Part shown: positions 3,057 through 58,240 of the stretch, piece after piece
How positions within the stretch are numbered: the first letter of the stretch is position 1
How the letters are laid out: each line of letters begins with the position of its first letter
Assembly (NCBI RefSeq): GCF_025685395.1
Contig: NZ_JAGSYA010000004.1
Coordinates: 744,001 to 808,000, forward strand
DNA length: 64,000 bases
Origin: Terriglobus tenax
Lineage (GTDB): Bacteria; Acidobacteriota; Terriglobia; Terriglobales; Acidobacteriaceae
Direction of reading: 5' to 3'
The notes under the pieces: model-generated
The model's input: the letters and a program-made list of their open reading frames with translations, nothing else
What the model was told of the DNA's origin: nothing
Databases searched by the model: none
Made by a program: the position numbers and the translations under genes

Positions 3057-3073
3057 CCGCACATACGATTTAC

Positions 3074-3123
3074 TCTGACCTCTCGACCGGAGTGCGTAGC
3101 ACGGAGCGGAGAGACCTGCATTT
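3074..3123 (+). repeat. Dispersed intergenic repeat, copy 1
   Basis: The stretch contains CTCTCGACCGGAG and then GGAGCGGAGAGACCTGCATTT. Related sequence occurs at about 19970, 25506 and 35894. It fills the gap between the NTF2-like gene and the convergent mutL. Confidence 0.75.
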
Positions 3124-3139
3124 CTTCAACCAACGCCAC

Positions 3140-27842: not shown

Positions 27843-29420
27843 TCAAGACCAATATTGGCGATCCAGCGTCCGATATTGAATCGCTTCTGCAATGTGGCGA
27901 ACATTAATCTGCGCTTCTCCGGCCAGGTCTGCAATGGTACGAGCTACCTTCAAAATCCGGTCATGCGCCCGGGCGCTGAGCCCCTGCTGCTGCATGGCGC
28001 GCTCCAGCAACCGTTCCGCATCGGAGGCCAGCTCGCAGTGCAGCCGGATCTGCTGCGTCGACATCTGCGCGTTGGCAAATACGCGCTGGCTGCGACGGGC
28101 GCCTTCAGGCGACAAGGCAAAGCGGTCATGCTGCCGCCGCCGGGCATCAAGAACCCTGGCACGTATCTCGCGCGAGCCCTCCGCCGCCGCGCCCGAGCGC
28201 AGCTCCTTATACTGCACGGCGGGCACCTCGATGTGGATGTCGATCCGGTCCAGCAGAGGTCCGGAGACCTTGGAAACATACCGCTGAATCATGGGCGGCG
28301 TACACATGCACTCGCGGCTTTTGTCATTGAAGTAGCCGCAGGGGCATGGGTTCATGGCGGCAATCAGCATGAACCGCGCCGGAAAGCTCAGACTCATGGA
28401 AGCGCGCGAGATGGTAACAACACCATCTTCCAAAGGTTGCCGCATCACCTCCAGAACGTTGCGGGGAAACTCCGGCAGCTCGTCCAGAAACAGCACCCCG
28501 TTGTGCGCCAGCGAGACCTCTCCCGGCCGCGGCACGGCTCCACCGCCGATCAGTCCGGCATCGCTGACCGTGTGGTGCGGCGACCGGAAGGGGCGGTGTG
28601 TCACCAGCCCGGTCTCAGCATTCAATACACCGGCCACCGAATGGATCTTGGTCGTCTCCAGCGCTTCTTCAAAGCTCAGCGGTGCAAGGATCGACGGAAA
28701 GCGCTTGGCCAGCATGGTCTTGCCGCTTCCCGGCGGACCGATCATAAGCACGTTGTGTCCGCCGGCAGCGGCAACCTCCAGGGCGCGCTTGGCCGTGTGC
28801 TGCCCACGCACATCGGAGAAGTCCGGGAGAGATTCCTGGATCTCCTCCAGAAGCGTGCTTTTATCCAGTTGAATCGGAGTAAGACTTTCCTGCCCCGTTG
28901 CAAGAGCGTTGATCAGTTCCCGTGCCTCCAGAAGACTGCGCACGGGATACACCTTCACGCCATCGACGACGGCAGCCTCGCGCGCGTTCACCGCGGGGAC
29001 CACCATCCGCTTGATGCCCTTCTGACGCGCAGCGACAGCGACGGGCAACATGCCCTGCACCGCGCGCACGGTGCCATCCAGTCCAAGTTCTCCCAGGAAG
29101 AGAAACTCTGTAAGGTCCGTGGCCTGCAACGCGCCGTACGCGCCAAGAATGCCGAGAGCGATCGGAAGATCGAAGCCCGAGCCCTCCTTACGGATATCGG
29201 CCGGAGCCAGGTTGATGGTGATGCGGACCGGCGGCATGTCAAAGCCGGAGTTGCGAATGGCGCTGCGCACGCGATCACGGCTCTCTTTCACGGCGGCGTC
29301 CGGAAGACCGACGGTCGAGAAGCTTTCCTGCTGCTGCTGCACTGTGGAAAAGTCGACTTCAACATCAATCAGGTGCGCGTCGATGCCGTAAACAGCTGCA
29401 CTGCGGGTCTTAAAGAGCAT
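27843..29420 (-). CDS. comM: YifB/ComM family Mg-chelatase-like AAA ATPase
   Basis: Of 525 residues the N-terminus ([20 protein letters not shown]) is a Lon-protease-like fold, followed by an AAA core with Walker [21 protein letters not shown], Walker [12 protein letters not shown], and a Zn-ribbon-like insert ([15 protein letters not shown]). ComM is a branch-migration helicase needed for efficient integration of DNA taken up by transformation. The ATG at 29420 matches family starts; the frame extends 92 non-conserved codons upstream. Confidence 0.92.
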
Positions 29421-41448: not shown

Positions 41449-42690
41449 ATGAAGACGACGCGCTACAAGAAATACGAGGGCGACCTGGCCAGCGAGCTTG
41501 GTCTTGAGGAGTTGATGGAGGCGCTCGGCGACTTCCTGCTCGACTCCGGCTTCCAGGACCCCTACGGCGACTTCAGCGAGATGAACATGGACCAGTCGCT
41601 CGACGACCTGCGTGAGGCCATCCGCCAGGTGCTGGAGAACGGCGACTTCCTGGACGAAGATACCCAGCAGCAGTACGACGACATGAGCGCCGAGCAGCAG
41701 GAGCAGATGCTCGACAAGCTGATCGAGCGCATGCAGAACGAGAACATGATCCGCACCGACGCGGAAACCTCAGACAGCACGCAGCCATCCACTGCTCCGG
41801 GCGAGGTAGGACGCAATGAGTCCGAGGTACGCTTCGAAGTCACTGACAAGTCGATGGACTTCCTCGGTTACAAGGCGCTGCGCAACCTGCTCGGCTCCAT
41901 GGGCCGCGCCAACTTTGGCCGTCATGACACCATCCACGAGGCCAGCGGCATCGAAGCCAGCGGATCCTCCAAGCCCTACGAATTCGGGGACACGCTGAAC
42001 CTGGACGTAACCGCCACGCTCAAGTCCGCCATCGAACGCGAAGGCCTGACCATGCCGCTGAATATTGAGTACAGCGACCTGCACGTCCATCAGTCAGAGT
42101 TCCAGGCATCCTGCGCTACAGTCGTCATGCTGGACTGCTCGCACTCCATGATCCTGTACGGCGAAGACCGCTTCACCCCGGCCAAGCGCGTGGCCATGGC
42201 GCTGGCGCACCTGACACGCACGCAGTTCCCAGGCGACTCACTGCACCTCGTGCTCTTCCACGACTCCGCCGAGGAGATTCCCATCTCGCAACTTGGCCGC
42301 GTCAAGGTTGGTCCCTGGTACACCAATACGCGCGAGGGCTTCAAGGTCGCACGGCGTATCCTCTCTCGCTCGAACAAGCAGATGAAGCAGATCGTCATGA
42401 TCACCGACGGGAAACCCTCGGCGCTCACGCTGCCCGATGGCCGCATCTACAAAAACGCCTTCGGCCTTGATCCGCTTGTCGTCTCCGAAACACTGGAAGA
42501 GGTCGGACGGTGCAAGCGTTCCGGCATCCAGATCAACACCTTCATGCTGACCAATGACTTCTCCCTCGTCCAGTTCGTACAGAAGGTCACGGCCATGTGC
42601 CGCGGCAAGGCCTACTTCACCACGCCGCAGACTCTGGGGAATTACCTGCTGATGGACTTCATGCAGCGCCGCATGAAGTCCGTCCACTAG
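41449..42690 (+). CDS. VWA-domain protein, partner of the AAA ATPase
   Basis: The 413-residue protein has an acidic N-terminal half ([20 protein letters not shown], then a Gln/Glu-rich segment) and a C-terminal von Willebrand A domain with the MIDAS motif [20 protein letters not shown] near residue 227, plus [16 protein letters not shown]. No signal peptide, so cytosolic. AAA plus VWA pairs act as chelatase-like or chaperone machines. Its stop overlaps the convergent Gfo/Idh stop by four bases. Confidence 0.85.
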
Positions 42691-43949
42691 ACAAACTTTT
42701 TGATATCGAAGCCCAGCTGATACGCCTCGGTATCGGCCTCAATCTCTTCCCAGCTCACGGACCGCCCTGTCTCAGCAGCCTTTCGCGCCAGCATGCAGCT
42801 GCGCGCACTCTCCACGCCGGCCGCAATCTGGTTCTGGAAGGTATTGCTGGTAATGCTTTCAATAAAGCTGCGGTCTTTCATCTTGTCTGCTTCGGCAAGG
42901 TTATCGCTGAAGGCACCGTCAGCGGCGAATTTGGTATCGCTGCTCTGTTCACTGCCAGACCACGTCCATGGCTTCAGTCCCTGGATGCCGAGCGTTCCCT
43001 TGTACGGCATCTCGGCCAGGCCATCGGTCCCGAAGATGGTCTCCTTCACATCAAAGTAGCCGGCGGCATTGAACTGCGTGGAGCTGAAGACAAACTCCGC
43101 ACCGTTGGGATAGGTAAAGATCACCTCGTAGTTGTCATTGATATTGCCCGCGTTCGTCAGCACTTTACGGCTGGCGCGCGCAACCGCCTTCACCGGATGG
43201 GTGTTCATCACCCAGTTGCACACGTCAATGACGTGGATGTTCTGCTCCAGCAGAATGTCTCCGGACAACGTCTTGTCCCAGAGCCAGTTGCGCAGGCGCA
43301 ACTCATCCTTGGGCATGTTGCCACGGTCAGGATAGGTTGCTGTGGGAGCGTTGTAGTGTCCGCTGAGCGATGCGATCCTGCCGATCTGTCCTTCGTGGAT
43401 GCGTTTGACGATCTCGATAAACGGCGGCGCCGAACGAATCTGGAATCCAACCGAGATGCTGACCTTGTTCCCTACGCGTTTTGCTATCTCCAGAGCCCGG
43501 CGTGTCTGCGGAATATCCACACCGACCGGCTTCTCGCAGTACACATGCTTGCCGCCAGCCGTCAGCACATCCATGTGCTCCACATGAAAGAAGGGCGGCG
43601 TGGAGATCTGGACCGCGTCAATCTTCGGGTTGGCCGCCATCGCCTTGTAGGACTCCCATCCATGGAAGGTCATCTTGGAGTCAATGGCAGAGAGGCCGAG
43701 CGAAGCATTGACCTGGTCAAAGTGCTGCTTCCCTTTGGCAAGCTGGTCCGGGAAGATGTCGCCCAGCGCCACGATGCGTGCCTGTGTATTCTTCGCAAAC
43801 GAAGTGGCAACCGAGGTGCCGCGTTTGCCGCAACCAAGCAAGCCGTAGTTCACGCTCGAATTGGCAGCGTAGCTGAAGGCAACGCTCGGCTTGACGATCA
43901 TCAGTCCGCCAACGGCTCCGGCGCTCTTGAGAAAATTTCTGCGATCCAT
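42687..43949 (-). CDS. Tat-exported Gfo/Idh/MocA oxidoreductase
   Basis: The 420-residue protein starts with a twin-arginine signal (MDRRNFLKSAGAVGGLMIVK). It has a Rossmann domain (NYGLLGCGKRGTSVATSF), the family motif VYCEKPVGVDIPQTRRALE, and a C-terminal substrate domain. Exported members keep NAD(H) bound and can oxidise or hydrolyse glycosides through a 3-keto intermediate. The next gene upstream, 15 bp away, encodes a Tat-exported TIM-barrel protein, so the two probably act together outside the cytoplasm. Confidence 0.88.
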   Translation of the reverse strand: MDRRNFLKSAGAVGGLMIVKPSVAFSYAANSSVNYGLLGCGKRGTSVATSFAKNTQARIVALGDIFPDQLAKGKQHFDQVNASLGLSAIDSKMTFHGWESYKAMAANPKIDAVQISTPPFFHVEHMDVLTAGGKHVYCEKPVGVDIPQTRRALEIAKRVGNKVSISVGFQIRSAPPFIEIVKRIHEGQIGRIASLSGHYNAPTATYPDRGNMPKDELRLRNWLWDKTLSGDILLEQNIHVIDVCNWVMNTHPVKAVARASRKVLTNAGNINDNYEVIFTYPNGAEFVFSSTQFNAAGYFDVKETIFGTDGLAEMPYKGTLGIQGLKPWTWSGSEQSSDTKFAADGAFSDNLAEADKMKDRSFIESITSNTFQNQIAAGVESARSCMLARKAAETGRSVSWEEIEADTEAYQLGFDIKKFV

Positions 43950-43963
43950 CGGGAATCTCCTGG

Positions 43964-44950
43964 CTACGCGTTCCTGATCTTGTTCAGAATGTTTTCGAGA
44001 TAAAGCTTTTCTTCTTTTACGTCCTGAATCTGCTGCGGGCCAGAGGTCTCGCGCTCAATGCTGACCGCGCCCTGGTAGCCGAGTTCATGCAGCATCTGCA
44101 GCACCCTGGGAAAATCGACCTCACCCCTCCCGATCACCACCTCTTCCCCCAGCTTGTCCGGATTGGTGGGCCACTTGCCGTCCTTTGCGTGCATGGCGCG
44201 GACATGCGGTCCCAGCACCTTCAGCGCATCCACCGGGTTGGCCTTGCCGTAAAGGATGAGGTTCGCCGTGTCCAGACCGACGCCAAGCGCGGGGTTATTC
44301 ACGTCCTTGATCATGCGCAGCATGGTCGTTGGCGTCTCCTGCCCCGTCTCCATCAGGAAACTCTGCCCGTTGGCCGCGCAGTGCCTGGTAATCTCAGTGA
44401 TCGCTGCGACTGTTTCCGGATAGAGCGGGTCCTTCGGGTCTTCCGAAATAAAGCCGCAGTGTGTCTGTACACGGCCAATGCCCAGAGACTTCGCAAAGTC
44501 CGAGCATTGCTTCAGCGCATCCAGCCGTGCCTGACGATACGCCCGCGGAACCAGGCCAATGGTGGAGGGCCCTTCCAGGAAGTTCCACTTCAACGGCTGT
44601 GGATTGACTACCTCCGCCGTCGTGGCAATGACCTGGTACTTCTCCAGCAAGCCGGCGAACTGCTTCGTCAGCGCAGGAGTGAAGTGGTCAAGATAGCCGT
44701 CCAGCGAAAGGAAGCAGGTCTCGAACCCAAGCTCGTGCACCAGACGGATCTTCGCCTCCGGATCAGGCGATGGCTTGATCAGCAGCCCCAGCTCCATCGG
44801 AGCATGTTGTGGCTGCTTGTAGCTGGACTGCGCCATCAGCGAAGCGGGTGCCGTGGCCATCGCCGCGCCTGCCGTAGCCAGGGTTGCTTGTTTCAGAAAA
44901 GCTCGACGCTCCATGGAAGCAGCCTCTCGTTTTTCCAGCGGGGATGACAT
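43964..44950 (-). CDS. Tat-exported TIM-barrel sugar isomerase/epimerase-like protein
   Basis: The 328-residue protein carries a twin-arginine signal (MERRAFLKQATLATAGAAMA) and a xylose-isomerase-like barrel (GLLIKPSPDPEAKIRLVHEL, GRVQTHCGFISEDP, ALGVGLDTANLILYGKANPV, RGEVDFPRVLQMLHELGYQG, SIERETSGPQQIQ) with metal-binding Glu, Asp and His positions. The ATG at 44950 has GGAGG at 6 nt. It leads the pair with the Tat-exported oxidoreductase. The likely role is epimerising or splitting a keto-sugar. Confidence 0.85.
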   Translation of the reverse strand: MSSPLEKREAASMERRAFLKQATLATAGAAMATAPASLMAQSSYKQPQHAPMELGLLIKPSPDPEAKIRLVHELGFETCFLSLDGYLDHFTPALTKQFAGLLEKYQVIATTAEVVNPQPLKWNFLEGPSTIGLVPRAYRQARLDALKQCSDFAKSLGIGRVQTHCGFISEDPKDPLYPETVAAITEITRHCAANGQSFLMETGQETPTTMLRMIKDVNNPALGVGLDTANLILYGKANPVDALKVLGPHVRAMHAKDGKWPTNPDKLGEEVVIGRGEVDFPRVLQMLHELGYQGAVSIERETSGPQQIQDVKEEKLYLENILNKIRNA

Positions 44951-45011
44951 GGACAACCTCCGTATGCGCGGACGCGCCGCGTTTGAAAACTATCAGTGGC
45001 ACAGACAAAAC

Positions 45012-45040
45012 AAAAGCCCCTCACACACGGAGGGGCCTTT
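45012..45040 (-). terminator. Terminator after the cytochrome c-HHH gene
   Basis: AAAAGCCCCTC / GAGGGGCCTTT with a 7-nt loop; on the minus strand it is followed by TTTTGTTTTGTC. It ends the upstream gene and separates it from the TIM-barrel/oxidoreductase pair. Confidence 0.8.
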
Positions 45041-45062
45041 GTTGATAACGTATCGTCTCTGC

Positions 45063-45656
45063 TTAGAACTCGATGATGTCCTTCTTGTCGTCAATCTTCG
45101 AGCCATCCACATCCGGAACCTTCTTCAGGTCGCTCAGCGCCTTGAAGTCGCCGTTCTTGGTGCGGTAGTCCACAAGGGCAGCAGCTTCCTTCTCCGTCAG
45201 GCCAAGTCCCTTCACCAGGTCCGCCGCGGCAGCCTTGTTCACATTCACATGCGCCGTCGCACCGCCAGCTCCAGGAGCGGGGAAGTTCTTCGAGACGTAA
45301 TCCAGAATCTTCGCGAAATCCTCATCGCTGGCCGTTGCTCCCATGTCGACCATCTTCGCGAGCGTGGCTTCCCATCCCTCGCGGCTCTGCGGACGGCTCA
45401 GGATATTGTTCGGCGAATGGCAGCGGCTGCACACCCGCAGCGTAACGTCGCGGCCCTCACCGGCGGGAAATTCGGGGTGTTCGTCCGACTGGTATGCAGC
45501 CAGCACGGCCGCCGGCGGATTGGCCGGCTTTGGCTCGGCGATAACAGCAGCAGCCACAAGGCACGACGCGGCAACCACAATCGCGCCGGTGAACTTCAGG
45601 TATACCGGATTCAGCTTTCCAGTCAGCTGCTCCCACTTGTTACGCAGTTCGCTCAT
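45063..45656 (-). CDS. Membrane-anchored cytochrome c fused to ComEA-like HHH domain
   Basis: Of 197 residues, about 20-40 are a membrane anchor (KFTGAIVVAASCLVAAAVIA). The next part holds one c-type heme site (RVCSRCHSPNN, CxxCH) with a likely Met ligand further on (LAKMVDMGA). The last 60 residues are a helix-hairpin-helix unit of ComEA type (HVNVNKAAAADLVKGLGLTE, FKALSDLKKVPDVDGSKI). Both domains should face the periplasm. Electron transfer for the exported sugar oxidoreductases is one possibility. The role of the HHH part (DNA, or protein binding) is open. Confidence 0.82.
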   Translation of the reverse strand: MSELRNKWEQLTGKLNPVYLKFTGAIVVAASCLVAAAVIAEPKPANPPAAVLAAYQSDEHPEFPAGEGRDVTLRVCSRCHSPNNILSRPQSREGWEATLAKMVDMGATASDEDFAKILDYVSKNFPAPGAGGATAHVNVNKAAAADLVKGLGLTEKEAAALVDYRTKNGDFKALSDLKKVPDVDGSKIDDKKDIIEF

Positions 45657-45853
45657 TTCCCCTCACCAATCCCCAAAAGTAACCTAGCGGGGATTTTAAC
45701 ATTCCGTATGAACCCTCGGCCAGACGGATAGTTGCCCGCCCCCCGGGGATTCGTCCGTGACCGTGTATCGACTCTCATTTACAGTCGCATGTAGAGTTTC
45801 TCGGCTGCGTTTTGGCGTGGTCAACACGTTCGACAAGGAAGTTCACCAGGCCC

Positions 45854-46921
45854 ATGGCACCGAATCAAAAAGAACTGGCGAAACTCGCCGGCGTCTCCGC
45901 CGGAACGGTTTCCAACGTCATCAGCGGATCGGCAAAGGTCAGCGAGCGCTCCCGGCAGAAGGTGTTGGAGGCGATCCGTATCCTGAATTACCGCCCCAAC
46001 CTGATTGCCCGCAGCCTGAAGACCAACCGCACCTATACGCTGGGCATCGTCATTCCGGACATCACGATTCCCTTCTTCCCCAAGATCGTACGCGGCGCCG
46101 AAGCCGCCGCACGCGAGCGAGGCTACTTCCTCATCGTTCTGGACTCCGAGGGTAGCCCGGAGCGCGAAGAGGACATGCTGGCCCTGCTCCGAGCGCAACG
46201 TGTTGAAGGCATCCTGTTGGTCACCGCGCAGGCAAGCGAAGCCGGCGATACCGAAAACCCGCAGGACATCGCTGGCTCTCCCATCGTCTGCGTCGACCGC
46301 GTTCCCGTAAATCTTGACGTCGATTCGGTATGCGTGGACGATGCCGGAGCCTCCGAAATGGCGACGGCCCATCTCATTGAAAATGGCCACCGGCGCATCG
46401 CCATCATCACCGGCCCCCTGTCGCTGCAAAACGAACACGAACGCCTGCGCGGCTACAAACGCGCCCTGTCGCGCGCTGGAATCCCGCTGGACGAATCCCT
46501 GATCTGGAACGCGGCCTTCGGACAGGAACTGGTAGCTGGACTGTGCCAGCGCGGCTTCCGTCAGTCGCCGGAGAGACCTACCGCCCTGCTGGCCACCAAC
46601 GGCGTCACTGGCATGGCTGCCCTGCGCAGCCTGTACACCATGGGACTGCGCACCCCGCGCGACTTTGCCTTTGTCACCTTTGACCAGGTCAACGCCGAGG
46701 CTCTGTTCAAACCCGGCATCTCCACGGTCGTACAGCCCACCTATGACATGGGTCACCGCGCGGTCGAGGTACTTCTGCGCCGCATTGAAGCTGGCGAGCA
46801 GTCTCCTCCGCCCATCACGCGCGTGCAGTTGCCCGCCGAACTCGTCGTACGCGAATCCTCCGCCACCCGTCTGAAAGATGCGCCCGCAAGAAGCGAGACA
46901 AAGAAGCGTGCGAAGGAATAA
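45854..46921 (+). CDS. LacI-family transcriptional regulator of the sugar locus
   Basis: The 355-residue protein begins with the LacI helix-turn-helix (MAPNQKELAKLAGVSAGTVSNV...) and hinge (LNYRPNLIARSLKT), then a periplasmic-binding-type effector domain (LGIVIPDITIPFFPKIVRGA, DFAFVTFDQVNAEALFKPGI). The effector is probably a sugar handled by the adjacent transporter, whose ATPase gene starts 21 bp downstream. The ATG at 45854 follows CCAGG. Confidence 0.92.
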   Translation: MAPNQKELAKLAGVSAGTVSNVISGSAKVSERSRQKVLEAIRILNYRPNLIARSLKTNRTYTLGIVIPDITIPFFPKIVRGAEAAARERGYFLIVLDSEGSPEREEDMLALLRAQRVEGILLVTAQASEAGDTENPQDIAGSPIVCVDRVPVNLDVDSVCVDDAGASEMATAHLIENGHRRIAIITGPLSLQNEHERLRGYKRALSRAGIPLDESLIWNAAFGQELVAGLCQRGFRQSPERPTALLATNGVTGMAALRSLYTMGLRTPRDFAFVTFDQVNAEALFKPGISTVVQPTYDMGHRAVEVLLRRIEAGEQSPPPITRVQLPAELVVRESSATRLKDAPARSETKKRAKE

Positions 46922-46942: not shown

Positions 46943-48466
46943 ATGCAAAACGTCGCGCCGAACAGCACTCTACCGCTCGCCATTCGGGCGAACGCACTGA
47001 CCAAGTCCTATGCCGGCGTCCGGGCCCTGCGCTCTGGTTCGCTGGAGCTTCGCGCCGGCGAAGTCCACGCCCTCATCGGCGAAAACGGCGCTGGCAAATC
47101 CACGCTCACCAAGATCATCACCGGCGCCATCCAGCCGGACTCCGGCGAGTTGGAGATCTTCGGCCAGCGCATCACGGCCAACGATCCCAACCTCTCCCGC
47201 TCGCTCGGCGTCGCCGTCATCTACCAGCAGCCCTCCATCTTCCCGCATCTCACGGTGGCAGAAAACATCTGCATGCCGCTGGAGCGTGAAAAAAACGGCC
47301 TGACCGTGGACTGGCGCAATCGCAAGCAGCGCGCCAAAGACCTGATGCAGTCCATCGGAGCCACCATCGACCCGGGCCGCCTGGCCGGAACCCTCAGCAT
47401 GGCCGAACAGCAGGTCGTCGAGATCGCCAAGGCTGTCGGCTCCAAAGCACGCGTCATCCTGATGGACGAGCCCACCGCCCTGCTCTCCGAGCGAGAGACC
47501 GAAAAGCTCTTCGCCCTGGTCAAGCGCCTGCGCGACGAAGGTGTCGCCATCGTCTACATCTCGCACCGGTTGGAGGAGATCCTCGCTCTCTCCGACCGCA
47601 TCACCGTCTTACGCGACGGCGAGACCATCGCTTGCCGCAACGCCAGCGACGTCAGCCGCGCCGAGCTGATTGAACTGATGGTCGGCCGCTCCATCGCATC
47701 CGTCTTCCCGAAGCGCGCAGTCACTCCCGGCGACCTCGCCATCGAAGTGAACGGCCTCAGCAATCCCGAGGTAGGCCTCCACGACATCTCCTTCAGCGTG
47801 CGCAAGGGAGAAATCTTCGGCCTCGCGGGCCTCGTCGGCTCCGGTCGTACTGAGTTGGCACGCACCCTCTTCGGGATCACTCCCGTCTCCACTTCCATTA
47901 CCTTGCATGGGCGCCAGGTCACCATCCATAGCCCCGCGGAGGCCATCGCCAACGGCCTTGGCTACTTGCCGGAAGACCGCCGCCAGCACGGCGTCATCCT
48001 CGATATGAGCATCGCCGATAACATCACACTGGCCAGCCTGAAAGACGTCGCCAAACATGGCCTGCTGAATGCCACGCAGGAAAAAGCCACCGCCGAGGGC
48101 TACCGCACCAGCCTGCGCATCAAGGCTCCAACCACGGAAACAACCACCGGAGCGCTCTCCGGCGGCAACCAGCAGAAGGTTGCACTCGCACGATGGCTGG
48201 CCATCCACCCCAGCGTCATGATCCTGGATGAGCCGACACAGGGCGTCGACGTCGGCTCCAAGTCCGAAATCCATGAACTCATTGTCGAGTTCGCCGAGCG
48301 CGGCATGGCCGTCATTCTCATCTCCTCCGAACTCCCCGAGGTCCTCGGCATGAGCGACCGCGTAGGCGTCTTCTATCAGGGCACCATCGTCGCCACGCTC
48401 AGCCAGGAAGAAGCCACGCAGCAGAAGGTCATGTCCCTCGCCTTTGGACACGAGGTATCCGCATGA
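46943..48466 (+). CDS. Sugar ABC transporter ATPase, two nucleotide-binding domains
   Basis: RbsA/MglA-type protein of 507 residues. NBD1 has Walker A GENGAGKSTLTKIITGA, signature LSMAEQQVVEIAK and Walker B VILMDEPTALLS. NBD2 has the usual weaker Walker A GLVGSGRTELARTL, signature LSGGNQQKVALARWL and MILDEPTQGVDVGSK. Powers import of a monosaccharide or related sugar by the two permease genes that follow with overlapping ends. Confidence 0.95.
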   Translation: MQNVAPNSTLPLAIRANALTKSYAGVRALRSGSLELRAGEVHALIGENGAGKSTLTKIITGAIQPDSGELEIFGQRITANDPNLSRSLGVAVIYQQPSIFPHLTVAENICMPLEREKNGLTVDWRNRKQRAKDLMQSIGATIDPGRLAGTLSMAEQQVVEIAKAVGSKARVILMDEPTALLSERETEKLFALVKRLRDEGVAIVYISHRLEEILALSDRITVLRDGETIACRNASDVSRAELIELMVGRSIASVFPKRAVTPGDLAIEVNGLSNPEVGLHDISFSVRKGEIFGLAGLVGSGRTELARTLFGITPVSTSITLHGRQVTIHSPAEAIANGLGYLPEDRRQHGVILDMSIADNITLASLKDVAKHGLLNATQEKATAEGYRTSLRIKAPTTETTTGALSGGNQQKVALARWLAIHPSVMILDEPTQGVDVGSKSEIHELIVEFAERGMAVILISSELPEVLGMSDRVGVFYQGTIVATLSQEEATQQKVMSLAFGHEVSA

Positions 48467-49407
48467 AGCAGCACGCACGCGAGATCGCTGTCGCCATCAC
48501 CATCCTTCTGCTGCTGGCCGTACTGGCTGCAACCACGCGCGGCTTCTTCACCGCCGACAATCTCACCGACCTCTTTCTGGCCAACGTACCCGTGCTCATC
48601 ATCGCCCTGGGGATGACGCTCATCATCCTCACCGGACAGATTGATATCTCCATCGGCTCGGTCTTCGCCGTCTGCAGCATCGTCGCCGGCGTGGCCGCGC
48701 GCGATGGCCTTCCGGTCCTGCTCGCCATGCTGCTGGCCTGTGCCGCCGGTACGCTGCTCGGGTCCTTCAACGGACTCCTGGTCGCATGGATGCGCATGCC
48801 CTCCATCGTGGTCACGCTGGCCTCCATGGTCGCCATTCGCGACGGCCTGCGCTGGCAGACGCAGGGTGCATGGGTCGGCGGCCTCCCCGCCAGTTTCCTG
48901 CGCTTCGGACTTTCGCAGACCGCTTACACAGCCACCACGCTCGTCATCGCTGTCCTTCTGGTCGCGCTCTTCGCCATCGGCCTGCGTTATTTTCGCGGAG
49001 GCCGCCAGATCTTCGCCACCGGCTCCAACGAAACCGCTGCCCGCATCCTCGGCATCAATACCGACCTCGTTCTCTTTTCGGTCTTCGCCATCACCGGCCT
49101 GCTCACCGGCTTTGCCGCCTCGCTCAACGCCGTACGCTTCAACCAGATTCCCAGCAACTCCGGCATCGGCATGGAGATGAAGGTCATCGCCGCCGTCGCC
49201 GTCGGAGGAGCCACCATCACCGGCGGCTCCGGCACCATCGCAGGCACCGTGCTCGGTGTCGTTCTACTCGGCCTCATCGGCCCGGCGCTCACCTTCCTCG
49301 GCATCAGCGCCTACTGGGAGCGCGCCATCCAGGGGCTCATCATTCTCGCCGCCGTCTCCGCCAACGTGCTCAGCCACTATCGCCGAAAGTCGGTGAGCCA
49401 TGCCTAA
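48463..49407 (+). CDS. Sugar ABC transporter permease
   Basis: RbsC-type inner-membrane permease, 314 residues, about ten spans. Motifs include FLANVPVLIIALGMTLIILT, GQIDISIGSVFAVCSIVAGV and AAVAVGGATITGGSGTIAGT, the EAA-like coupling region. The ATG overlaps the ATPase stop (ATGA), and its own stop overlaps the next start by 8 bp. With the fused second permease it should form a heterodimeric channel. Confidence 0.94.
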   Translation: MKQHAREIAVAITILLLLAVLAATTRGFFTADNLTDLFLANVPVLIIALGMTLIILTGQIDISIGSVFAVCSIVAGVAARDGLPVLLAMLLACAAGTLLGSFNGLLVAWMRMPSIVVTLASMVAIRDGLRWQTQGAWVGGLPASFLRFGLSQTAYTATTLVIAVLLVALFAIGLRYFRGGRQIFATGSNETAARILGINTDLVLFSVFAITGLLTGFAASLNAVRFNQIPSNSGIGMEMKVIAAVAVGGATITGGSGTIAGTVLGVVLLGLIGPALTFLGISAYWERAIQGLIILAAVSANVLSHYRRKSVSHA

Positions 49408-51385
49408 GCGGCTTCGCATCTCCGCGGCAGAGGTCGCCCTGCTCATCGCTCTTGTCTTGGAGTGCGTCTACTTCGGCATCGCCGCGCCCAGCTTCGCCAC
49501 CTGGGGCAACTTTTTTGAGGTCGTCCGCTTCTCTGTCGAGCTCGGCCTTCTGGTCATCGCGCTCACACCGATCCTCATCACCGGTGGCATCGACCTCTCC
49601 GTCGGATCCACCATCGGCATGACCGCCGTGCTCTTCGGCTCGCTCTGGCACGATGGCCACCTGCCCATCGCGCTCTGCTTCCTCCTGGCTCTCGTCATCG
49701 GCCTGCTTGCCGGAGGCTTGAACGCCCTGCTCATCGCCGGCCTGCGCCTGCCGCCGCTGATCGTGACGCTTGGCACCTTCTCGCTCTACCGAGGCATCGC
49801 CGAAGGCATCACCCACGGAGCCGTCAGCTTCACCGGCTACCCCGCAGCCTTTCTGCACCTGGGGCAGGGATACTTCTGGAAGCTCATCCCCGTGCAGCTT
49901 CCCATCCTGCTCATCATTCTCGCTGCCTATGTCGTTCTTCTGCACAAGTCCGTCATCGGCCGCAGCATCTACGCCATCGGCTTTAACGCCGACGGCGCAC
50001 GTTACGCCGGCATCCCGGTCCGCAAGCGGCTGGCGCTGCTCTATGTCCTCTCCGGAGTAATTGCGTCTCTCGCGGCGCTCATCTACGTCGCACATCTTGG
50101 CCTTGCAAAGTCTGACCTCGGCACCGGCTACGAACTGCAGGCCATCACCGCCGTCGTCGTCGGTGGCGTCTCCGTCTTCGGAGGCCGTGGCACCCTGCTC
50201 GGCTCCATGCTTGGCCTCTTCTTCCTCTCCGTGCTGCAGAACGGAATGCACCTGATGGCTCTACCTTCGGAGATGACCGGCGTCCTCATCGGCTTCCTTC
50301 TGCTGGCTATCGTTGCGGTCGATCGCCTGCGCGCCACCGGCAAGCTGAAGCTCGAACCCGGCGAAACCCCGCTCTGGAAGCGTCCCGGCATCGTTTCTGC
50401 CTTACTGGTCGCATGCGTCGTCATCGGTTCGCTGATGACGCATGCGGCCTCGCATCGCAGCAGCGCCGCCGCCGGCAGCCATAAGCTCACCATCGCGGTC
50501 ATGCCCAAGGCAAAGGGCGATCCCTACTTCATCAGCGCCCGTGCCGGTGCCGAAGAGGCTGCAAAAGAACTCGGCATCGACCTCATCTGGGACGGCCCCA
50601 CCAGCCTCGACGCCTCGCAGCAGAACGAGCTGGTCGAGAACTGGATCACCCGTGGTGTGGACGCGATCGTCGTCGCCGTCGAGAACAAGGGCAGCATCTC
50701 CACCGTTCTGCGTAAGGCCCGCGCGCATGGCATCGCCGTACTCACCTGGGACGCCGACGCCGAGCTCAATGCACGCGACTACTTCCTCAACCAGGCCACA
50801 CCTGTCGGCATCGCCAACGCCCTAACGGACGAAGGCGCGCGCCTGATGCCGCAGGGCGGACAGTTCGCCATCGTTACCGGAGCGCTCAGCGCCGAAAACC
50901 AGAACGAGTGGATCGCCGACATCAAAAAACGCGTCGCCTCCGACCATCCCAACCTTCAACTGGCCACCATTCAGCCCAGCGACGACGATCGCGACAAGGC
51001 CTTCAACCAGACCCAGGTCATCCTGAAGGCCTACCCGCAGGTGAAGCTCATCATCGCCATCTCCGCACCCGCCGTCCCCGGAGCAGCCGAAGCCGTTTCG
51101 CAGGCCGGTCGCAAGGACGTGAAGGTCATCGGCCTGTCACTGCCTTCCATCTGCCGCACCTACCTGCACGATGGTTCTGTGCAGACCATCTTCCTGTGGA
51201 ACACGCAGGACCTTGGCTACCTGACCGTCTACGCAGGCGTGCTGACCGCAGAGAAAAAAATCGCGGCCAACGCGACAGACGTCCACGTTGGCCGCTTAGG
51301 CAAGCTCGATATCAATGGTTCCGAAATCATCCTCGGCAAGCCGCTGCTCATCGACAAAAACAATGTCGACAGCCTGCACTTCTAA
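49400..51385 (+). CDS. Sugar ABC permease fused to its substrate-binding domain
   Basis: A 661-residue fusion. Residues 1 to about 320 are a RbsC-like permease (TPILITGGIDLSVGSTIGMT, ITAVVVGGVSVFGGRGTLLG). A further hydrophobic segment near 332-350 (GIVSALLVACVVIGSLMT) follows. Residues 360-661 are a periplasmic sugar-binding protein of the RhaS/LsrB/ribose type (KLTIAVMPKAKGDPYFISAR, VDAIVVAVENKGSISTVLRK, GQFAIVTGALSAENQNEWI). The extra span would place the binding domain outside, tethered to its own channel. No separate binding-protein gene lies near. Its stop overlaps the convergent DUF4432 stop. Confidence 0.92.
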   Translation: MPKRLRISAAEVALLIALVLECVYFGIAAPSFATWGNFFEVVRFSVELGLLVIALTPILITGGIDLSVGSTIGMTAVLFGSLWHDGHLPIALCFLLALVIGLLAGGLNALLIAGLRLPPLIVTLGTFSLYRGIAEGITHGAVSFTGYPAAFLHLGQGYFWKLIPVQLPILLIILAAYVVLLHKSVIGRSIYAIGFNADGARYAGIPVRKRLALLYVLSGVIASLAALIYVAHLGLAKSDLGTGYELQAITAVVVGGVSVFGGRGTLLGSMLGLFFLSVLQNGMHLMALPSEMTGVLIGFLLLAIVAVDRLRATGKLKLEPGETPLWKRPGIVSALLVACVVIGSLMTHAASHRSSAAAGSHKLTIAVMPKAKGDPYFISARAGAEEAAKELGIDLIWDGPTSLDASQQNELVENWITRGVDAIVVAVENKGSISTVLRKARAHGIAVLTWDADAELNARDYFLNQATPVGIANALTDEGARLMPQGGQFAIVTGALSAENQNEWIADIKKRVASDHPNLQLATIQPSDDDRDKAFNQTQVILKAYPQVKLIIAISAPAVPGAAEAVSQAGRKDVKVIGLSLPSICRTYLHDGSVQTIFLWNTQDLGYLTVYAGVLTAEKKIAANATDVHVGRLGKLDINGSEIILGKPLLIDKNNVDSLHF

Positions 51386-52440
51386 ACTTCAGTCGCCGCA
51401 ATCGCCTTCTGTACGGCATCCACGCCATCGTGGATATCGAACTGAATCCGGAAGACCACCTTCTCTCCCGGCTGCATGATCTTCAGCGTGCCGCGCTCGC
51501 GTTCCTTCTTGCGGCCAAGGCTGCGGCAGTTCGCCGGCTCAAAGCCCAGCACGAAATCATGCACCCCGGTCAGCTTCCACTCGATAAAGTCCGGCAGCGT
51601 GGTTGGGTCATACTTCACGCTTACAGCCCAATCCTTTTTCTCGCGATCACTGACAAGCAGCGTATTCACCCATCCATCCGTTCCGGGCTTCATGGTGTGG
51701 AAGTACACCCTCTCACCCATGCCGCGCACCGGCTCGTTGAAGACATTCCACTCGTCAAAAGTCGCCTGCGCATGCGGCGTGGCGGCAACCGTCGACGCAG
51801 GACTGGCAAAGATCTGGCTCTTCCCTGTCAGCAGCGGATATCCAAAGTTCAGGTGATACAGCGCCATCAGCGGTGACTCGCCGTAGCCCTGATTCTCGAC
51901 CGTATCCTCAACCGCAATCCTGCTCGTCTTCAAGGATGCCGTGATCTTGCGCGTCAGCAATAGGTTCGGTCCAAAGACTGAGGCCTCGCGCACCTTCCCG
52001 GTAATCGTGAAGATGCAATCATCGCCCACCCAGTCCTCGCTCCAGCTCACCTGCTCCGCCGGTGTATTCGAAACAAATCCATGCAGCCCAAGCTGCTTGC
52101 CGTCGTCCTCGCTCGGAGCGCCCGCATGCGATAACCCACAGAAGCACAGCAGGCCGCCATAGAACCCGCGCAGCCAGTCCAGCCCCTTGTCCGAGTGGTA
52201 CGCCGGATGCGTAATGCCTGTGGCCGACTGCCAGCTCAGCGACTTGCCGTAGTAATAGGCCTCGCCAATGTCCATGCCCCGGCCGGGCATCACCCAGAAC
52301 TCAAGCCCAACGGCCGTGCGCACACGCAGCGCAGAAACACCCTTCGCCTTACCGTCGGCATACTCAAACGCCGTGACACCACCCAGCTGTGACAACCGGC
52401 CAGTACGTTCTTCCAGAAATGTGCGTGTCTCAGAACCCAT
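51382..52440 (-). CDS. DUF4432, aldose-epimerase-like protein
   Basis: The 352-residue protein has the DUF4432/galactose-mutarotase-like fold: FWVMPGRGMDIGEAYYYGKS, GITHPAYHSDKGLDWLRGFY, GGLLCFCGLSHAGAPSEDDG, HGFVSNTPAEQVSW and FVLGFEPANC. No signal peptide, so it acts in the cytosol. It likely handles the anomeric form or an isomer of an imported sugar. It may be the last gene of the minus-strand operon starting at 56850. Confidence 0.85.
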   Translation of the reverse strand: MGSETRTFLEERTGRLSQLGGVTAFEYADGKAKGVSALRVRTAVGLEFWVMPGRGMDIGEAYYYGKSLSWQSATGITHPAYHSDKGLDWLRGFYGGLLCFCGLSHAGAPSEDDGKQLGLHGFVSNTPAEQVSWSEDWVGDDCIFTITGKVREASVFGPNLLLTRKITASLKTSRIAVEDTVENQGYGESPLMALYHLNFGYPLLTGKSQIFASPASTVAATPHAQATFDEWNVFNEPVRGMGERVYFHTMKPGTDGWVNTLLVSDREKKDWAVSVKYDPTTLPDFIEWKLTGVHDFVLGFEPANCRSLGRKKERERGTLKIMQPGEKVVFRIQFDIHDGVDAVQKAIAATEV

Positions 52441-52529
52441 CGTGATCTTCGTCTCCCAATGTTCCTTCTAAAAACTAACAGCGCGGCGATCCCTCGCCAC
52501 GCTGTAGGTCAAACAAAATCCGCCGCAGG

Positions 52530-53411
52530 CTATGGCAGCTTCTTGATGTAGATGTTGCGATGCAGAATATGCAGCGTCCCCGGCCCCTCGATCTCCAGCG
52601 CGATGTAGCCGCTGGAAGCCATCTTTTCCGGATCGGTATCGATCGTCTGCGAGAAGACGTGACCGTTGATCATGTGCGTCAGCGTATGGCCATCGGCAAC
52701 AATCTCAATCTCGTTCCAGTCATCTTTCTTCAAGTAGGACTTCAACTGTTCCGCAGTACCGACCTCAGCTACAACACGAGGCTTAGCCCCCTTGCCCTCA
52801 AACGCCACCACCTGGCCGGGATAGGTCATGATTCCCCGCTCCGAACTCTGCTCGTAGAGCTGGCCCGTGTAGCGGTTGTCATAGTTGAAGTCCATCTGGT
52901 AGCCGTCCATGTTCCACGCGGCATGCTTCCTGTTCAGCTCCGCCGCCTTGGCCATGCGGGCCTTCTGCTCTTCCGTCGGATTCGCCGGAGGAATACGGTC
53001 GCGCACCGGAACGATATGGCTGCAGTACTGGATGCCGCCATTCGCTCCAGCGCCTTCCATCTTCACCTCCATGCGAAGACGGAAGTTGGCGAACTGGCTG
53101 GTCTTGTAGATCAGGTTGGTCGTGCCTGACGGCACCGCTTCGCTGGACGAACCGACAATGGCGCCATCGGCCACGCTCCACACCTCAGGCGCACCGCTCC
53201 AGCCTGTCATCGTCTTGCCGTCGAACAAGGCTGTCCAACCGGTGTGGTCGTCCCAGTTGCGCGGCTCCGGAGGAACGCGGTTCACCGGGCCAAGCGGCGG
53301 CAGCTTTTTCGCCGCGGCCTTCTGCGCCGGCAGTGTTACCGCTGCGGACAAAACAAAGACGGCAGCCGTAAACAGGCCTGCCGTCTTCTTCAAGTTGATT
53401 CTGTGCATCAT
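52530..53411 (-). CDS. DUF1080 family secreted protein (3-keto-glycoside hydrolase type)
   Basis: The 293-residue protein has a signal peptide (ending AVTLPAQKAAA) and a DUF1080 lectin-like fold (WTALFDGKTMTGWSGAPEVW, FRLRMEVKMEGAGANGGIQY, GYIALEIEGPGTLHILHRNI). Members cleave 3-keto-glycosides made by Gfo/Idh/MocA oxidoreductases. The ATG shares one base with the stop of the upstream oxidoreductase gene (TAATG); a second ATG follows at 53408. The signal peptide puts it outside the cytoplasm, unlike the gene it is coupled to. Confidence 0.87.
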   Translation of the reverse strand: MMHRINLKKTAGLFTAAVFVLSAAVTLPAQKAAAKKLPPLGPVNRVPPEPRNWDDHTGWTALFDGKTMTGWSGAPEVWSVADGAIVGSSSEAVPSGTTNLIYKTSQFANFRLRMEVKMEGAGANGGIQYCSHIVPVRDRIPPANPTEEQKARMAKAAELNRKHAAWNMDGYQMDFNYDNRYTGQLYEQSSERGIMTYPGQVVAFEGKGAKPRVVAEVGTAEQLKSYLKKDDWNEIEIVADGHTLTHMINGHVFSQTIDTDPEKMASSGYIALEIEGPGTLHILHRNIYIKKLP

Positions 53412-54562
53412 TATTCCTTTGGCGGAAGCGCAGATTCCCACTGCTTGGTCTTGGCCGACTTCAGGACAGCATCGGTCACATAGTCGCACTTCAGGCCGTC
53501 TTCAAACGTCGGAGCAGCTTCCTTGCCCTCGCCTACGGCAATCAGGAAGTCCGCAACCTGATGAATGAAGGTGTGCTCGTAACCAATCTGTAGACCCGGT
53601 ACCCACCAGTTCTTCATGTACGGATGGTCACCGTCGGTAATGTGAATGCTCTTCCATCCGCGCAGACGGCTCTCGTCACGATGATCGAAGAACTCCAGGC
53701 GGTGCAGGTCATGCAGGTCCCAACGAGCGGAAGCCTTCTCGCCGTTGATCTCCAGCGTGAACAGAGCCTTGTGGCCGCGCGCGTAACGCGTGGACTCAAA
53801 CAGCGCCATCGAGCCGTTCTCAAAGTGGCCCAGGAAAGCAGCTGCGTCATCGATGGTGACCGGAGTCTTCACGCCGGTCTCGCTGTGCATGCGTTCTTTG
53901 ATGAAGGTTTCGGTCATCGCCGTCACATCCACAATCGATCCGTTCAGCCACATGGCCATGTCAATGTTGTGAGCCAGCAGGTCACCCGTAACACCAGAGC
54001 CCGACACGCTGGAATCCAGGCGCCAGGTTCCCTGCCCGCCCTGTGGCAGGTCTTCGGAGATCGTCCAGTCCTGCAGGAACTGCGAGCGGTAGTGAAAGAT
54101 GCGGCCAAAGCGGCCCTCGTCCAGCAACTGCTTCAGCAGAACCACGGCGGGCACGCGACGGTAGTTGTACCAGACCATGTTCGGAACTCCGGCCTTCTTC
54201 ACCGCGTCCCACATGGGCTTGCCCTCTTCCGCGGTACGAGCCAGCGGCTTCTCGCACAGCACCATCTTGCCCGCCTCGGCCGCTGCAATCGCAATCTCGG
54301 CATGCGTGTTGTTGGGGCTGGCAATGTCGATCACATCGATGTCCTTGCGCTCGATCAGCTTGCGCCAGTCCGTCTCGACCGACTCATAGCCCCAGGTCTC
54401 GGCAAAGCCCTTCACCTTCTCCGCGCTGCGGGCGCACACGGCCTTCAGCACAGGTTCATACGGAGTATCGAAGAAGCGAGGCGCCTGCAGAAAGGCATTC
54501 GAATGGGTTTTGCCCATGAAGCCATAACCGACCAGGCCAACGTTCAGTTTTTTCTTAGCCAT
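53411..54562 (-). CDS. Cytosolic Gfo/Idh/MocA oxidoreductase
   Basis: The 383-residue protein begins [20 protein letters not shown] (GxGxxG Rossmann) and has [20 protein letters not shown] and [20 protein letters not shown], the family's cofactor and catalytic signatures. There is no signal peptide. It should oxidise or reduce a sugar or inositol-type ring using NAD(P). It is coupled to the DUF1080 gene below and lies 12 bp after the TIM-barrel gene above. Confidence 0.9.
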
Positions 54563-54574
54563 GCGTCTGTTTCC

Positions 54575-55618
<1,044 letters not shown>

Positions 55619-55632
55619 AACACTCTCTCCGG

Positions 55633-56850
55633 TTACTTCTTGATCAGCGGCGCGGCGTCAGGATTGCCCGGGCCAAAGTGCTTCAGAACGACCAGAGGAT
55701 CGCTGATGCTCTTGTTCTGCACCACGACGCCCTTGTTCGCGGCAGCCTTGGTGACAAAGTACTCGTCCTCGGTCAGCTCCCCGAAGCGGATCATCGTCGG
55801 CGCCGACACCGGCTGCCTGCCCAGCGATCCATGGCCCTGCACCACGATGCAACCATACGCCTCGGCATCGGTGATGGTCACCGTCTGCCCCGGCAGAACC
55901 GTCAGCTCCTTGGCCGAGTAGAACTTGGTGCCGTAGGTCACCCAAACTTCGCGATAGCCCAGCTTCTCAGTCTCCGCAAACGGCTTCACCGGAGTCGGGA
56001 AGCACTTGTTCGACTTGCCGAACTCGGGGTTCACATTCTGGTCCCAGTCCAGCATGTTGATGATGTAATCCAGGTCCTGGTGCTGGGCTTCCGGAACATC
56101 CTTCACAAGCAGGCTCCAGTCCACAATGCGTCCATCCACCTCGGACTGGAACATCGCGAACACATCCGAATTCACCTGCGGCTCATAGGTCACCAGCGAT
56201 CCCGGAGCATGCAGTACGCCCGGATCAATCTGCCAGCCCGTTCCCGGCTCCAACAGGTAGGCGCGTGCCAGGCCCAGGATGCCGTTGTCGCCTCTGTTCC
56301 AGTTCTCCAGGCACTTGCGCACATCGTCCTTCGTCGTGCCGGGCTCCAGGCCCATGAAGGTGTACGGGAAGTTGTTCTTGATCTGGTTGTACTGCGGCGG
56401 GAAGTAGTACGCCTCCGGCTTGCCCTTGAAGCCGACACGCGCCGCGTCCTCATCGTTCTGGTGCATGTGGTGCGGAATCGGTCCCATGTTGTCAAAGAAC
56501 TTGCACAGGATGTTCCAACCCTTCTCACGCTCCATCACATCGGCGCCCAGCAGCAGGTCTCCGGCTTCGTCCACGGCATCCTTCAACTGGAACTTCTCAC
56601 CCGTGCCGGTGACCACGTAGCTCAGACCTTCATCCGCGGTGGTCAGCGGACCGTTCGACGCCTTGGTCGTCGACGAGAACCAGCGCTCATTGATGCCGCC
56701 ACGGTTCGCGCCAAAGGCATACAGGTCGTCCGGGTGCAGGCGCAGACGGCGGCCCGGAATCATGAATGAGCGGGGGACCCAGCAGGGAGCCAGCCGGAGG
56801 ATACCCTCGCCGGCATTGATAGCGTCCTGTACGTTAGAGCGATTCACCAT
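55633..56850 (-). CDS. Cupin protein, first gene of the sugar operon
   Basis: The 405-residue protein has a cupin metal site ([20 protein letters not shown] and following Glu and Tyr in KPEAYYFPP), and a second beta-barrel near the C-terminus ([20 protein letters not shown]). The two-barrel layout resembles phosphomannose-isomerase-like or dioxygenase-like cupins. The activity is not clear; an isomerase for the same pathway is plausible. It leads the run 56850 to 51382 (cupin, TIM barrel, oxidoreductase, DUF1080, DUF4432). No signal peptide. Confidence 0.75.
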
Positions 56851-57178
56851 GTTGACGTCTTCCTTCTTCTGTTGCGGAGACTGGCTGCCCTACCGACAAC
56901 AGGCTGGACCAGCGGATCCGGTTGTGCGAGCACATATCTCACCAGACGCCCCTTCTCTTCGCCTGAAAACCGGCGAAATACCGGAAAACAGGAGGATTGA
57001 GGAGGGAATGGAACGTTTTCGTGAGACGTCTCATTGCCGCGAGGATACTATCGACGACCATCGGCCAATGTCAAGAAACTTCCGAAAACCCTTCGATTCC
57101 TCACATCCGCCCAAGATCGCACAACCCCTGGAACCCAAACCCTGCCTCCGGCGTCCCATTACCATTACTCTTCTGGAT
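56851..57178. promoter_or_regulatory. 328-bp divergent control region with operator-like palindromes
   Basis: Lies between the cupin-led operon (-) and the lipoprotein operon (+). It contains GGAACGTTTTC at 57010-57020, close to the AANCGNTT-type core of LacI-family operators, and directly after it a perfect 12-bp palindrome TGAGACGTCTCA at 57022-57033. An ATG at 57008 with GAGGAGGGA before it is in frame with the peroxidase but would put 57 polar residues ahead of the lipoprotein signal. Confidence 0.5.
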
Positions 57179-58240
57179 ATGCCGTTTTCCCGCACCTCCA
57201 TCGCCGGCCTGCTCCTTCTTCCCCTGCTGATGGCCGGCTGCCGCTCCAGAATCCAGGACAACCCCATCGGTAAGCCAATCACCATCAAGCCGCCGCTCGG
57301 GCTGCCCGCCGTTCCGGTCCCGGCCGACAATCCCGTCACCGCCGAAGGCATTGCCCTGGGCCGTAAGCTCTTCTACGACAAGCGTCTCTCCAGCGATAAC
57401 TCCCTGGCCTGCGCGCACTGCCACGACCCGAAGTTTTACTTCACGGATGGCCTGCGCCTCTCCAAAGGAGTCAAAGAACAGCTCGGCGTTCGCAACGCCC
57501 CCACCATCCTGAACGCTGCCTACATGCCCTTCCAGTTCTGGGACGGCCGCGCCATCTCGCTCGAGCAGCAGTCCATCGGCCCCATCGCCAATCCCGTGGA
57601 GATGAACAACAAGACCCACGACATCTTTCTAGGCAAGTTGAAGGGAGACCCCGAGTACGCCACTCTCTTTCGCAAGGCCTACGGCTCAAAGGACATCAAC
57701 CTGCTTCGCGTCGAAAAAGCTCTGGCCAGCTTTGAACGCACCCTGCTCAGCGGAGGCTCCGCCTTTGACCGCTTTCAATACGGCGGAGATTCCACAGCGC
57801 TCACCCCGGAACAACTTCGCGGTCTGGTCGTCTTCATGAATCCCGCAGCGGGCAACTGCGCCGCCTGCCACACCCTCGGTTCAAAAGATTCGCTCTTCAC
57901 CGACGGCAAGTTCCACAACATCGGCCAGGGTGTAAAGGATGAGGGCGACTTCAACGATGTTGGCCGCTACCACGAGACCAAGGTGGAAACCGACAAAGGC
58001 GCCTTCAAGACTCCCACCCTGCGTAACGTGGCACAGACCGCCCCGTACATGCATGATGGCAGCATCAAAACGCTGCCCGAGGTCGTCGACTTCTACGCCG
58101 GGCAGGGTAACTCCAACCCCTACCTTGATCCTGAGATCAGAAAGATCCATCTGAGCCCACAGGACCGCCGCGACCTCGTTGAGTTTCTCAACGCACTCAC
58201 CGGAGAGATGCCGCCAAACTCCGGCCCTCCTGCAAAGTAA
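57179..58240 (+). CDS. Di-heme cytochrome c peroxidase (MauG/CcpA family) lipoprotein
   Basis: The 353-residue protein has a lipoprotein signal (SIAGLLLLPLLMAGC) and two c-type heme sites, LACAHCHDPKFYFTDGL and NCAACHTLGSKDSLF. Family motifs include GRKLFYDKRLSSDNSLACAH, GVRNAPTILNAAYMPFQFWDG and FKTPTLRNVAQTAPYMHDGS. It reduces hydrogen peroxide, or oxidises a protein partner, in the periplasm, anchored to a membrane by its lipid. The start at 57179 is chosen because of the lipoprotein signal. Confidence 0.9.
   Translation: MPFSRTSIAGLLLLPLLMAGCRSRIQDNPIGKPITIKPPLGLPAVPVPADNPVTAEGIALGRKLFYDKRLSSDNSLACAHCHDPKFYFTDGLRLSKGVKEQLGVRNAPTILNAAYMPFQFWDGRAISLEQQSIGPIANPVEMNNKTHDIFLGKLKGDPEYATLFRKAYGSKDINLLRVEKALASFERTLLSGGSAFDRFQYGGDSTALTPEQLRGLVVFMNPAAGNCAACHTLGSKDSLFTDGKFHNIGQGVKDEGDFNDVGRYHETKVETDKGAFKTPTLRNVAQTAPYMHDGSIKTLPEVVDFYAGQGNSNPYLDPEIRKIHLSPQDRRDLVEFLNALTGEMPPNSGPPAK

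Follow-up and report, generated by a model that had tools for sequence, protein, structure and literature searches.

The gene at positions 45063 to 45656 of the window, by which we mean the whole 64,000-nucleotide stretch of Terriglobus tenax DNA that was analyzed and to which all window positions refer, encodes an exported protein in which a single heme site is followed by a C-terminal ComEA-type HHH_3 fold. We consider it somewhat probable that this protein is a mono-heme cytochrome taking electrons from exported oxidoreductases with its HHH domain as an adaptor, the window copy representing a branch of the system tied to a sugar regulon. Export was judged from the sequence. Below, L-numbers denote loci and G-numbers denote genomes. 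The gene and the parts of its product are as follows.

45063..45656, minus strand: cytochrome c–HHH gene, 197 aa (translation and Pfam/NCBIfam domain matches)
45537..45593, minus strand: hydrophobic anchor or long signal peptide, approximately residues 22–40 (by eye; similar in L034/L035)
45282..45473, minus strand: mono-heme cytochrome c domain, approximately residues 62–125 (resembles QHNDH alpha and SorB in profile comparison)
45417..45431, minus strand: heme site CSRCH, residues 76–80 (C76, C79, and H80 invariant in 15/15 aligned rows)
45066..45257, minus strand: ComEA-type HHH_3 domain with degenerate hairpins, residues 134–197 (Pfam, AlphaFold2, VIA-align, and residue comparison)

The outline given in a preliminary description of this DNA, a 197-residue protein with one CSRCH site and a C-terminal HHH unit, is borne out by translation and by an HHH_3 match at E 1e-11. 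The membrane anchor that it also named does correspond to a hydrophobic stretch at the N-terminus, which may either stay in place uncleaved as an anchor or be a long signal peptide. The two-domain reading frame is more than a chance juxtaposition, since orthologues with 81–83% identity across residues 1–197 occur in three further genomes of the genus and a paralogue with 41% identity, both domains, and an ordinary-looking signal peptide is encoded in the same genome. Matches at E ≤ 1e-8 were found in 24 of 61 genomes (the T. tenax genome and 60 relatives), some of them to the cytochrome domain only, and profile matches at E ≤ 1e-10 in 145 of 396 sampled Acidobacteriota genomes. Among the matches listed, at least 30 of these 396 genomes, with 14 family codes, carry a two-domain match, defined as one running from profile position 45 or lower through position 160 or higher; named relatives with family members include Terriglobus albidus and an Acidobacteriaceae MAG. 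The mix of domains was fairly called odd, but it is a conserved Acidobacteriota family, for which neither the papers found nor the Pfam and NCBIfam models supply a settled function. The literature searched contained no paper on any cytochrome–HHH protein, and the plasmid records searched contained no match. A distant parallel, described in the accessible part of PMC8805035, comes from two betaproteobacteria in which mtrC has an HhH gene as its neighbor.

Structure prediction places an HHH fold at the C-terminus. HHH_3 (PF12836) covers residues 136–187 and exceeds the Pfam cut-off; the ComEA-type NCBIfam matches (1.9e-10 and 3.3e-10) both lie under theirs, the comE and ComEA repeat models scoring 40.0 against 152.35 bits and 40.7 against 53.1 bits. 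AlphaFold2, given a three-row alignment as input, was fairly confident in the HHH domain only, with block means of 74–89 from residue 141 and of less than 60 in all earlier blocks. In VIA-align, the modeled domain is nearest to ComEA 8dss (Z 11.1, rmsd 3.8, 69 residues aligned), followed by Tex 2oce (Z 9.7), the ComEA-related 2duy (Z 9.0), type II secretion minor pseudopilins (Z ≤ 8.0), and PsbU (6.0–5.1). PsbU of photosystem II is alike in its HHH fold, a Z of 5–6 being a weak structural score. It provides an example of a protein-binding HHH next to electron transfer, with no cytochrome domain of its own.

What the family shares with ComEA and ComE1 (HHH_3, PF12836) is export, the HHH fold, the conserved N140, and an arginine equivalent to R71, which is present in 26/26 distinct HHH-bearing members and in 28 of 29 more from second-round loci. 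In contrast to ComEA, the HHH domain is joined to a cytochrome, the genes are linked to oxidoreductases and a sugar regulator, and both the GxG hairpin and the K63 lysine have been lost. GxG is found at hairpin 1 or 2 in 0/26 and 0/29 members, and the K63 position is occupied by Glu in 16 of the 26, Leu in four, Val in three, Asp in two, and Gln in one (Glu157 in the window protein), with Lys and Arg absent from the 29 second-round members. The excerpted text of a Vibrio cholerae study reports that the ComEA substitutions K63E, G60V, and G60E yield non-transformable cells, that G60A is without effect, and that R71 is thought to be structural (PMC3879209). Because G60A is harmless, loss of the hairpin glycine is not decisive by itself. 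Counted by eye and with Tex omitted, GxG is retained at hairpin 1 in 16 of 17 further small HHH proteins from related genomes, though most of them likewise have no Lys at the K63 position. The T. tenax genome encodes two such small HHH proteins with a GxG, and its sole ComEC-type gene sits elsewhere.

These replacements indicate that the family HHH has lost the known DNA contacts, which weighs against the suggestion of DNA binding and competence in the preliminary description, and a competence role as the main reading was rejected on the same residues and on the distant ComEC-type gene. It is unlikely that the protein is a DNA-linked cytochrome, whose HHH domain would bind periplasmic or extracellular DNA and serve tethering to extracellular DNA or DNA uptake, even though its fold is near that of ComEA, the R71-equivalent arginine is universal among the 26 members, the net charge shows no separation between the family HHH and the ComEA of 8dfk, and a ComEA-related HHH of a bacterial DNase binds DNA, as stated in the excerpt of PMC4777378. 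We call DNA binding unlikely rather than impossible because human EEPD1, which sequence comparison gives as the best PDB match, has no complete GxG in the first hairpins of the match either and because DNA binding by ComEA also employs lysine side chains, according to the portion of PMC9747964 available. The domain is more probably a docking domain. Protein binding is within the capacity of such HHH domains: Pasteurella ComE1 is described, in the accessible part of PMC2601033, as binding fibronectin in addition to DNA. Counting against a docking role, the fusion proteins of L132 and L133 retain the HHH despite covalent joining, and the members at L060 and L061 have lost it.

The N-terminal half of the protein contains one CxxCH site, and M102, invariant in 15/15 aligned members, is the likely sixth ligand of a heme that the protein is predicted to load. 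Pfam cytochrome models score under their cut-offs on the window protein, as does the NCBIfam SorB cytochrome model (E 5.8e-10, 39.1 bits where 93 are required). A profile built from 15 relatives, however, finds the heme domain of quinohemoprotein amine dehydrogenase (QHNDH) alpha (1jmx and 1jju) at ~1e-11 and SorB (2blf) at 1.3e-7 in a PDB profile search, the likeness extending across the CxxCH domain. Modeled alone, the cytochrome part reached low confidence, and the Foldseek and VIA searches with it returned no cytochrome, a result that is uninformative for so poor a model. The QHNDH alpha heme domain and SorB are electron acceptors inside periplasmic enzyme complexes. Unlike them, the window protein is separate and small and carries an HHH tail.

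Candidate electron donors are encoded around family members. Of the 55 full two-domain loci, many of which stem from close relatives, 29 have a propeller gene of quinoprotein fold no more than three genes away; a LacI gene of one family is equally near in 15, one or the other is found in 42, and 13 have neither alongside. The expectation for propellers is ~2%, based on ~12 propeller genes in the T. tenax genome (our own count, with the gene total estimated), and 0/16 control loci around other HHH proteins had one, the control stretches being shorter. Sequences of first-round neighbors went into the propeller profiles; the second-round loci, which are independent of these profiles, have a propeller nearby in 17 of 29 cases. 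Neighbor counts rely on a simple gene caller of our own that sets starts too short in several loci, such as L138 and L160, where the profile matches in the 396 genomes reveal longer open frames than the called genes. It missed the paralogue at L036, which was added by hand to the 29 propeller-linked loci, and the family genes of L134 and L149, which therefore stand outside the 55. Partial matches were also kept outside the full set (L060–L069, L071, L072, the second gene of L155, L160, L164–L166, and others), and L055, with a PQQ dehydrogenase-type gene four genes off, was scored as having no propeller.

The propellers are of two kinds, the PQQ dehydrogenase type (PF01011; in L058, E 3e-187) and divergent propellers that come in pairs, are ~500–540 aa long, and have weak PQQ scores. 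Two genomes (L132 and L133) seem to fuse propeller, cytochrome, and HHH in a 772-aa protein, whose propeller-like part is assigned from our own profile (55–56 bits) and by eye, because Pfam recognizes the HHH but no propeller there. The same cytochrome domain also stands C-terminally on PQQ dehydrogenase-type propellers in L064, L066, L069, and L072, an arrangement like that of quinohemoproteins, the PQQ dehydrogenases with a fused cytochrome c; these four fusions, however, have no HHH, and the window cytochrome is a separate gene. In a quick tree with 22 of 52 inner branches weak, one clade (support 92) sits beside propellers in 18/18 cases, and the clade of the window copy (support 94) sits beside LacI in 15/17, its members L138, L142, and L042 having propellers. 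Further neighbors are QHNDH alpha (L070), a glucose/sorbosone dehydrogenase with cytochrome c (L161), a molybdopterin enzyme (L154), and a gluconate 2-dehydrogenase subunit 3 type protein (L163). Separately, L154, L155, and L156 have, beside their cytochrome–HHH genes, thiamine-pyrophosphate enzymes with Tat-like N-termini (by eye) that are possibly exported. At L050 (frame 1521–1715, minus strand) and L071, the same cytochrome domain is N-terminal on a Vgb-like beta-propeller, the type being judged by eye.

For the window copy and its three closest orthologues, no propeller gene lies within three genes, and the partner must therefore be encoded elsewhere. Within the T. tenax genome, the orphan propeller pair of L167 is a candidate, as are the PQQ dehydrogenase-type genes found at L168 and at L170; none of these directly adjoins a CxxCH gene, although L168 has one three genes away. 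The genome encodes PqqC. G003, G008, and G014 carry propeller-linked copies but no PqqC; PQQ may therefore be absent from the divergent propellers. Within the genus (n = 19), a PqqC match occurs in 5/5 genomes with an orthologue of at least 78% identity and in 1/14 others (G007), a suggestive pattern that may merely follow one clade; in G013, the orthologue is known from a 51-residue fragment and the PqqC match is partial and under the cut-off. At L036 in the T. tenax genome, a molybdenum hydroxylase gene set (546–4490, minus strand; large subunit by domain match, the other two by eye) stands beside a propeller pair and the paralogous cytochrome gene.

It is quite improbable that the protein is instead a SorB-like subunit serving a molybdenum enzyme of the sulfite or aldehyde oxidase type. 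The SorB matches of the model and PDB profile searches would fit such a role, as would the molybdopterin enzymes near the L036 paralogue and beside L154, but the model score is far below its cut-off, propellers are much commoner neighbors, and the annotated neighbors of the window copy include no molybdopterin gene.

The window copy has its own surroundings, which are listed here with two sequence elements discussed below.

42687..44914, minus strand: Gfo/Idh/MocA and xylose-isomerase-like TIM-barrel genes with Tat-like starts (domain matches)
45009..45043, minus strand: terminator-like hairpin 3′ of the cytochrome gene, 14 pairs, 7 G-C (pattern scan: three found, 1.2 in shuffles)
45769..45787, plus strand: CGACTCTCATWTASAGTCG, imperfect inverted repeat in the cytochrome/LacI gap (conserved in the window and three orthologous loci)
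45854..46921, plus strand: LacI-family regulator, divergent from the cytochrome gene (domain match)
46943..51385, plus strand: sugar ABC transporter, comprising ATPase, permease, and a permease joined to a RhaS-like sugar-binding protein (match to the RhaS model under its cut-off)
51382..56850, minus strand: probable sugar operon of five genes (inferred from strand and spacing)
57022..57033, unstranded: palindrome TGAGACGTCTCA, lying 172 bp ahead of the sugar operon (no second exact copy in the genome)

The preliminary description was right to place a sugar regulator, the LacI protein, alongside the cytochrome gene, but its exported sugar-oxidizing enzymes are the Gfo/Idh/MocA and xylose-isomerase-like TIM-barrel proteins of 42687–44914. 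The comM-type gene that it mentioned is real, a ComM-type Mg-chelatase-like gene at 27843–29420 (minus strand), but lies ~16 kb away with no link to the cytochrome seen. The sugar operon encodes a DUF4432 protein, a member of the 3-keto-disaccharide hydrolase family, Gfo/Idh/MocA and TIM-barrel proteins, and a 405-aa protein. In L040, L041, and L043–L046, genes for rhamnulokinase and rhamnulose-1-phosphate aldolase accompany those for LacI and the cytochrome; the two enzyme names were assigned on the L040 genes, with the aldolase above and the kinase below its cut-off. Another enzyme encoded close by in L040 shows a match, under the cut-off, to 2,4-didehydro-3-deoxy-L-rhamnonate hydrolase. The cytochrome gene of the window clade probably belongs to a sugar utilization set, for which L-rhamnose or a rhamnoside would be the substrate.

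Several other features of this region were observed. The permease and RhaS-like sugar-binding protein at 49400–51385 (plus strand) form one chain, which is conserved in orthologous loci. The 405-aa protein (55633–56850, minus strand) has no Pfam or NCBIfam match, and relatives of its gene stand first in the sugar operon or behind propeller pairs. At 57008–58240 (plus strand) lies a MauG/MbnH-like di-heme enzyme gene (under the cut-off), followed by two exported-looking proteins; its called start overlaps the palindrome at 57022 and was probably set too far upstream.

The closest genes on the cytochrome strand are the 42687–44914 pair, for which the protein could serve as electron acceptor, a reading to which we give little credence. 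The pair adjoins the cytochrome gene, shares its strand, and has Tat-like starts, as judged by eye (the Pfam Tat model matches the first only, under its cut-off); against this, the terminator-like hairpin lies between, and the pair is missing at the equivalent spot in L037, L038, and L039, where the cytochrome and LacI genes remain. Gfo proteins, moreover, normally partner with NAD(P), not with a cytochrome. These genes are probably not part of the cytochrome unit, and their co-transcription with it, entertained as a candidate arrangement, is not supported given the hairpin and the three loci without the pair.

A shared palindrome lies before cytochrome–HHH genes, propeller pairs, L-rhamnose genes, and sugar transporter genes in relatives and before the sugar operon of the window. 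TGAGACGTCTCA occurs in the cytochrome/LacI gap of L138, L141, and L144, with a variant in L137; it precedes propeller–propeller–cytochrome genes in L142, rhamnose–LacI–cytochrome genes in L040 and L041, propeller pairs in L056, L057, L059, L192, L179, and L183–L185, and the sugar transporter in L138, L141, L144, and L181. Among 180 composition-matched palindromes it ranked first in the 70 loci chosen for the cytochrome: it had 17 sites, spread over 11 of these loci, where the mean was 0.2, a result that related genomes inflate. In the T. tenax genome, a one-mismatch copy lies 115 bp before the L167 propeller pair, and two more lie between the L036 propeller pair and the paralogous cytochrome gene. 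No copy within four mismatches was found in the window's own cytochrome/LacI gap (45640–45870). Because the copy at 57022 is the sole exact one in the genome, we infer control of the window cytochrome from its relatives. The imperfect repeat CGACTCTCATWTASAGTCG in that gap, with one exact copy in the genome, is a possible regulatory site.

Thirty-eight of the 49 exact TGAGACGTCTCA sites were inspected, that is, all but ten others of G012 and one of G002. A reversed control pattern gave 0–3 copies per genome; in G003 and G014, it is at least as frequent as the palindrome (2 and 2, and 3 and 2, respectively), and positions alone argue there. Of the eight G005 sites outside L040, six (L187–L191 and L193) have no relevant gene after them, and four of these six fall inside called genes. 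The palindrome was not found in the literature searched. At position 1390 of L173, in the same genome as the window, a one-base variant precedes TonB-receptor-like, CxxCH, and PQQ dehydrogenase-type genes.

That the protein acts as a sensor or regulator, signaling the redox state of its single heme through the HHH to a partner in place of bulk electron transport, is very unlikely, for all that a regulator gene lies alongside, as LacI proteins are cytoplasmic and the family relatives sit with enzymes.

For the exported cytochrome with an HHH adaptor, the evidence above would fit the following scheme. Exported oxidoreductases, chiefly beta-propellers of quinoprotein fold, would pass electrons to the mono-heme c-type cytochrome, which would hand them onward toward the respiratory chain, and the ComEA-type HHH, devoid of its DNA contacts, would most likely serve a protein partner as a docking or adaptor surface. 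In the window clade, the cytochrome, the LacI-family regulator, the sugar ABC transporter, and the Gfo/TIM/3-keto-hydrolase operon may form one sugar set. It is a more tentative proposal, which we hold to be less than evenly probable, that a rhamnose-type LacI regulon of Acidobacteriota possesses an exported arm composed of a divergent propeller pair and a cytochrome with a DNA-blind HHH, amounting to a previously unrecognized periplasmic sugar-oxidation module.

If true, such a module would supply electrons to respiration either ahead of or during entry of the sugar into the 3-keto (Gfo/TIM/hydrolase) route, and the ComEA fold would have been put to new use as an electron-transfer adaptor. 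The family carries a warning that Acidobacteriota proteins annotated as 'ComEA-like helix-hairpin-helix' can be electron carriers, and it draws attention to a family of propellers with the quinoprotein fold. With one palindrome and one regulator family, it also provides a regulon in which periplasmic sugar oxidation could be tested in abundant soil bacteria.
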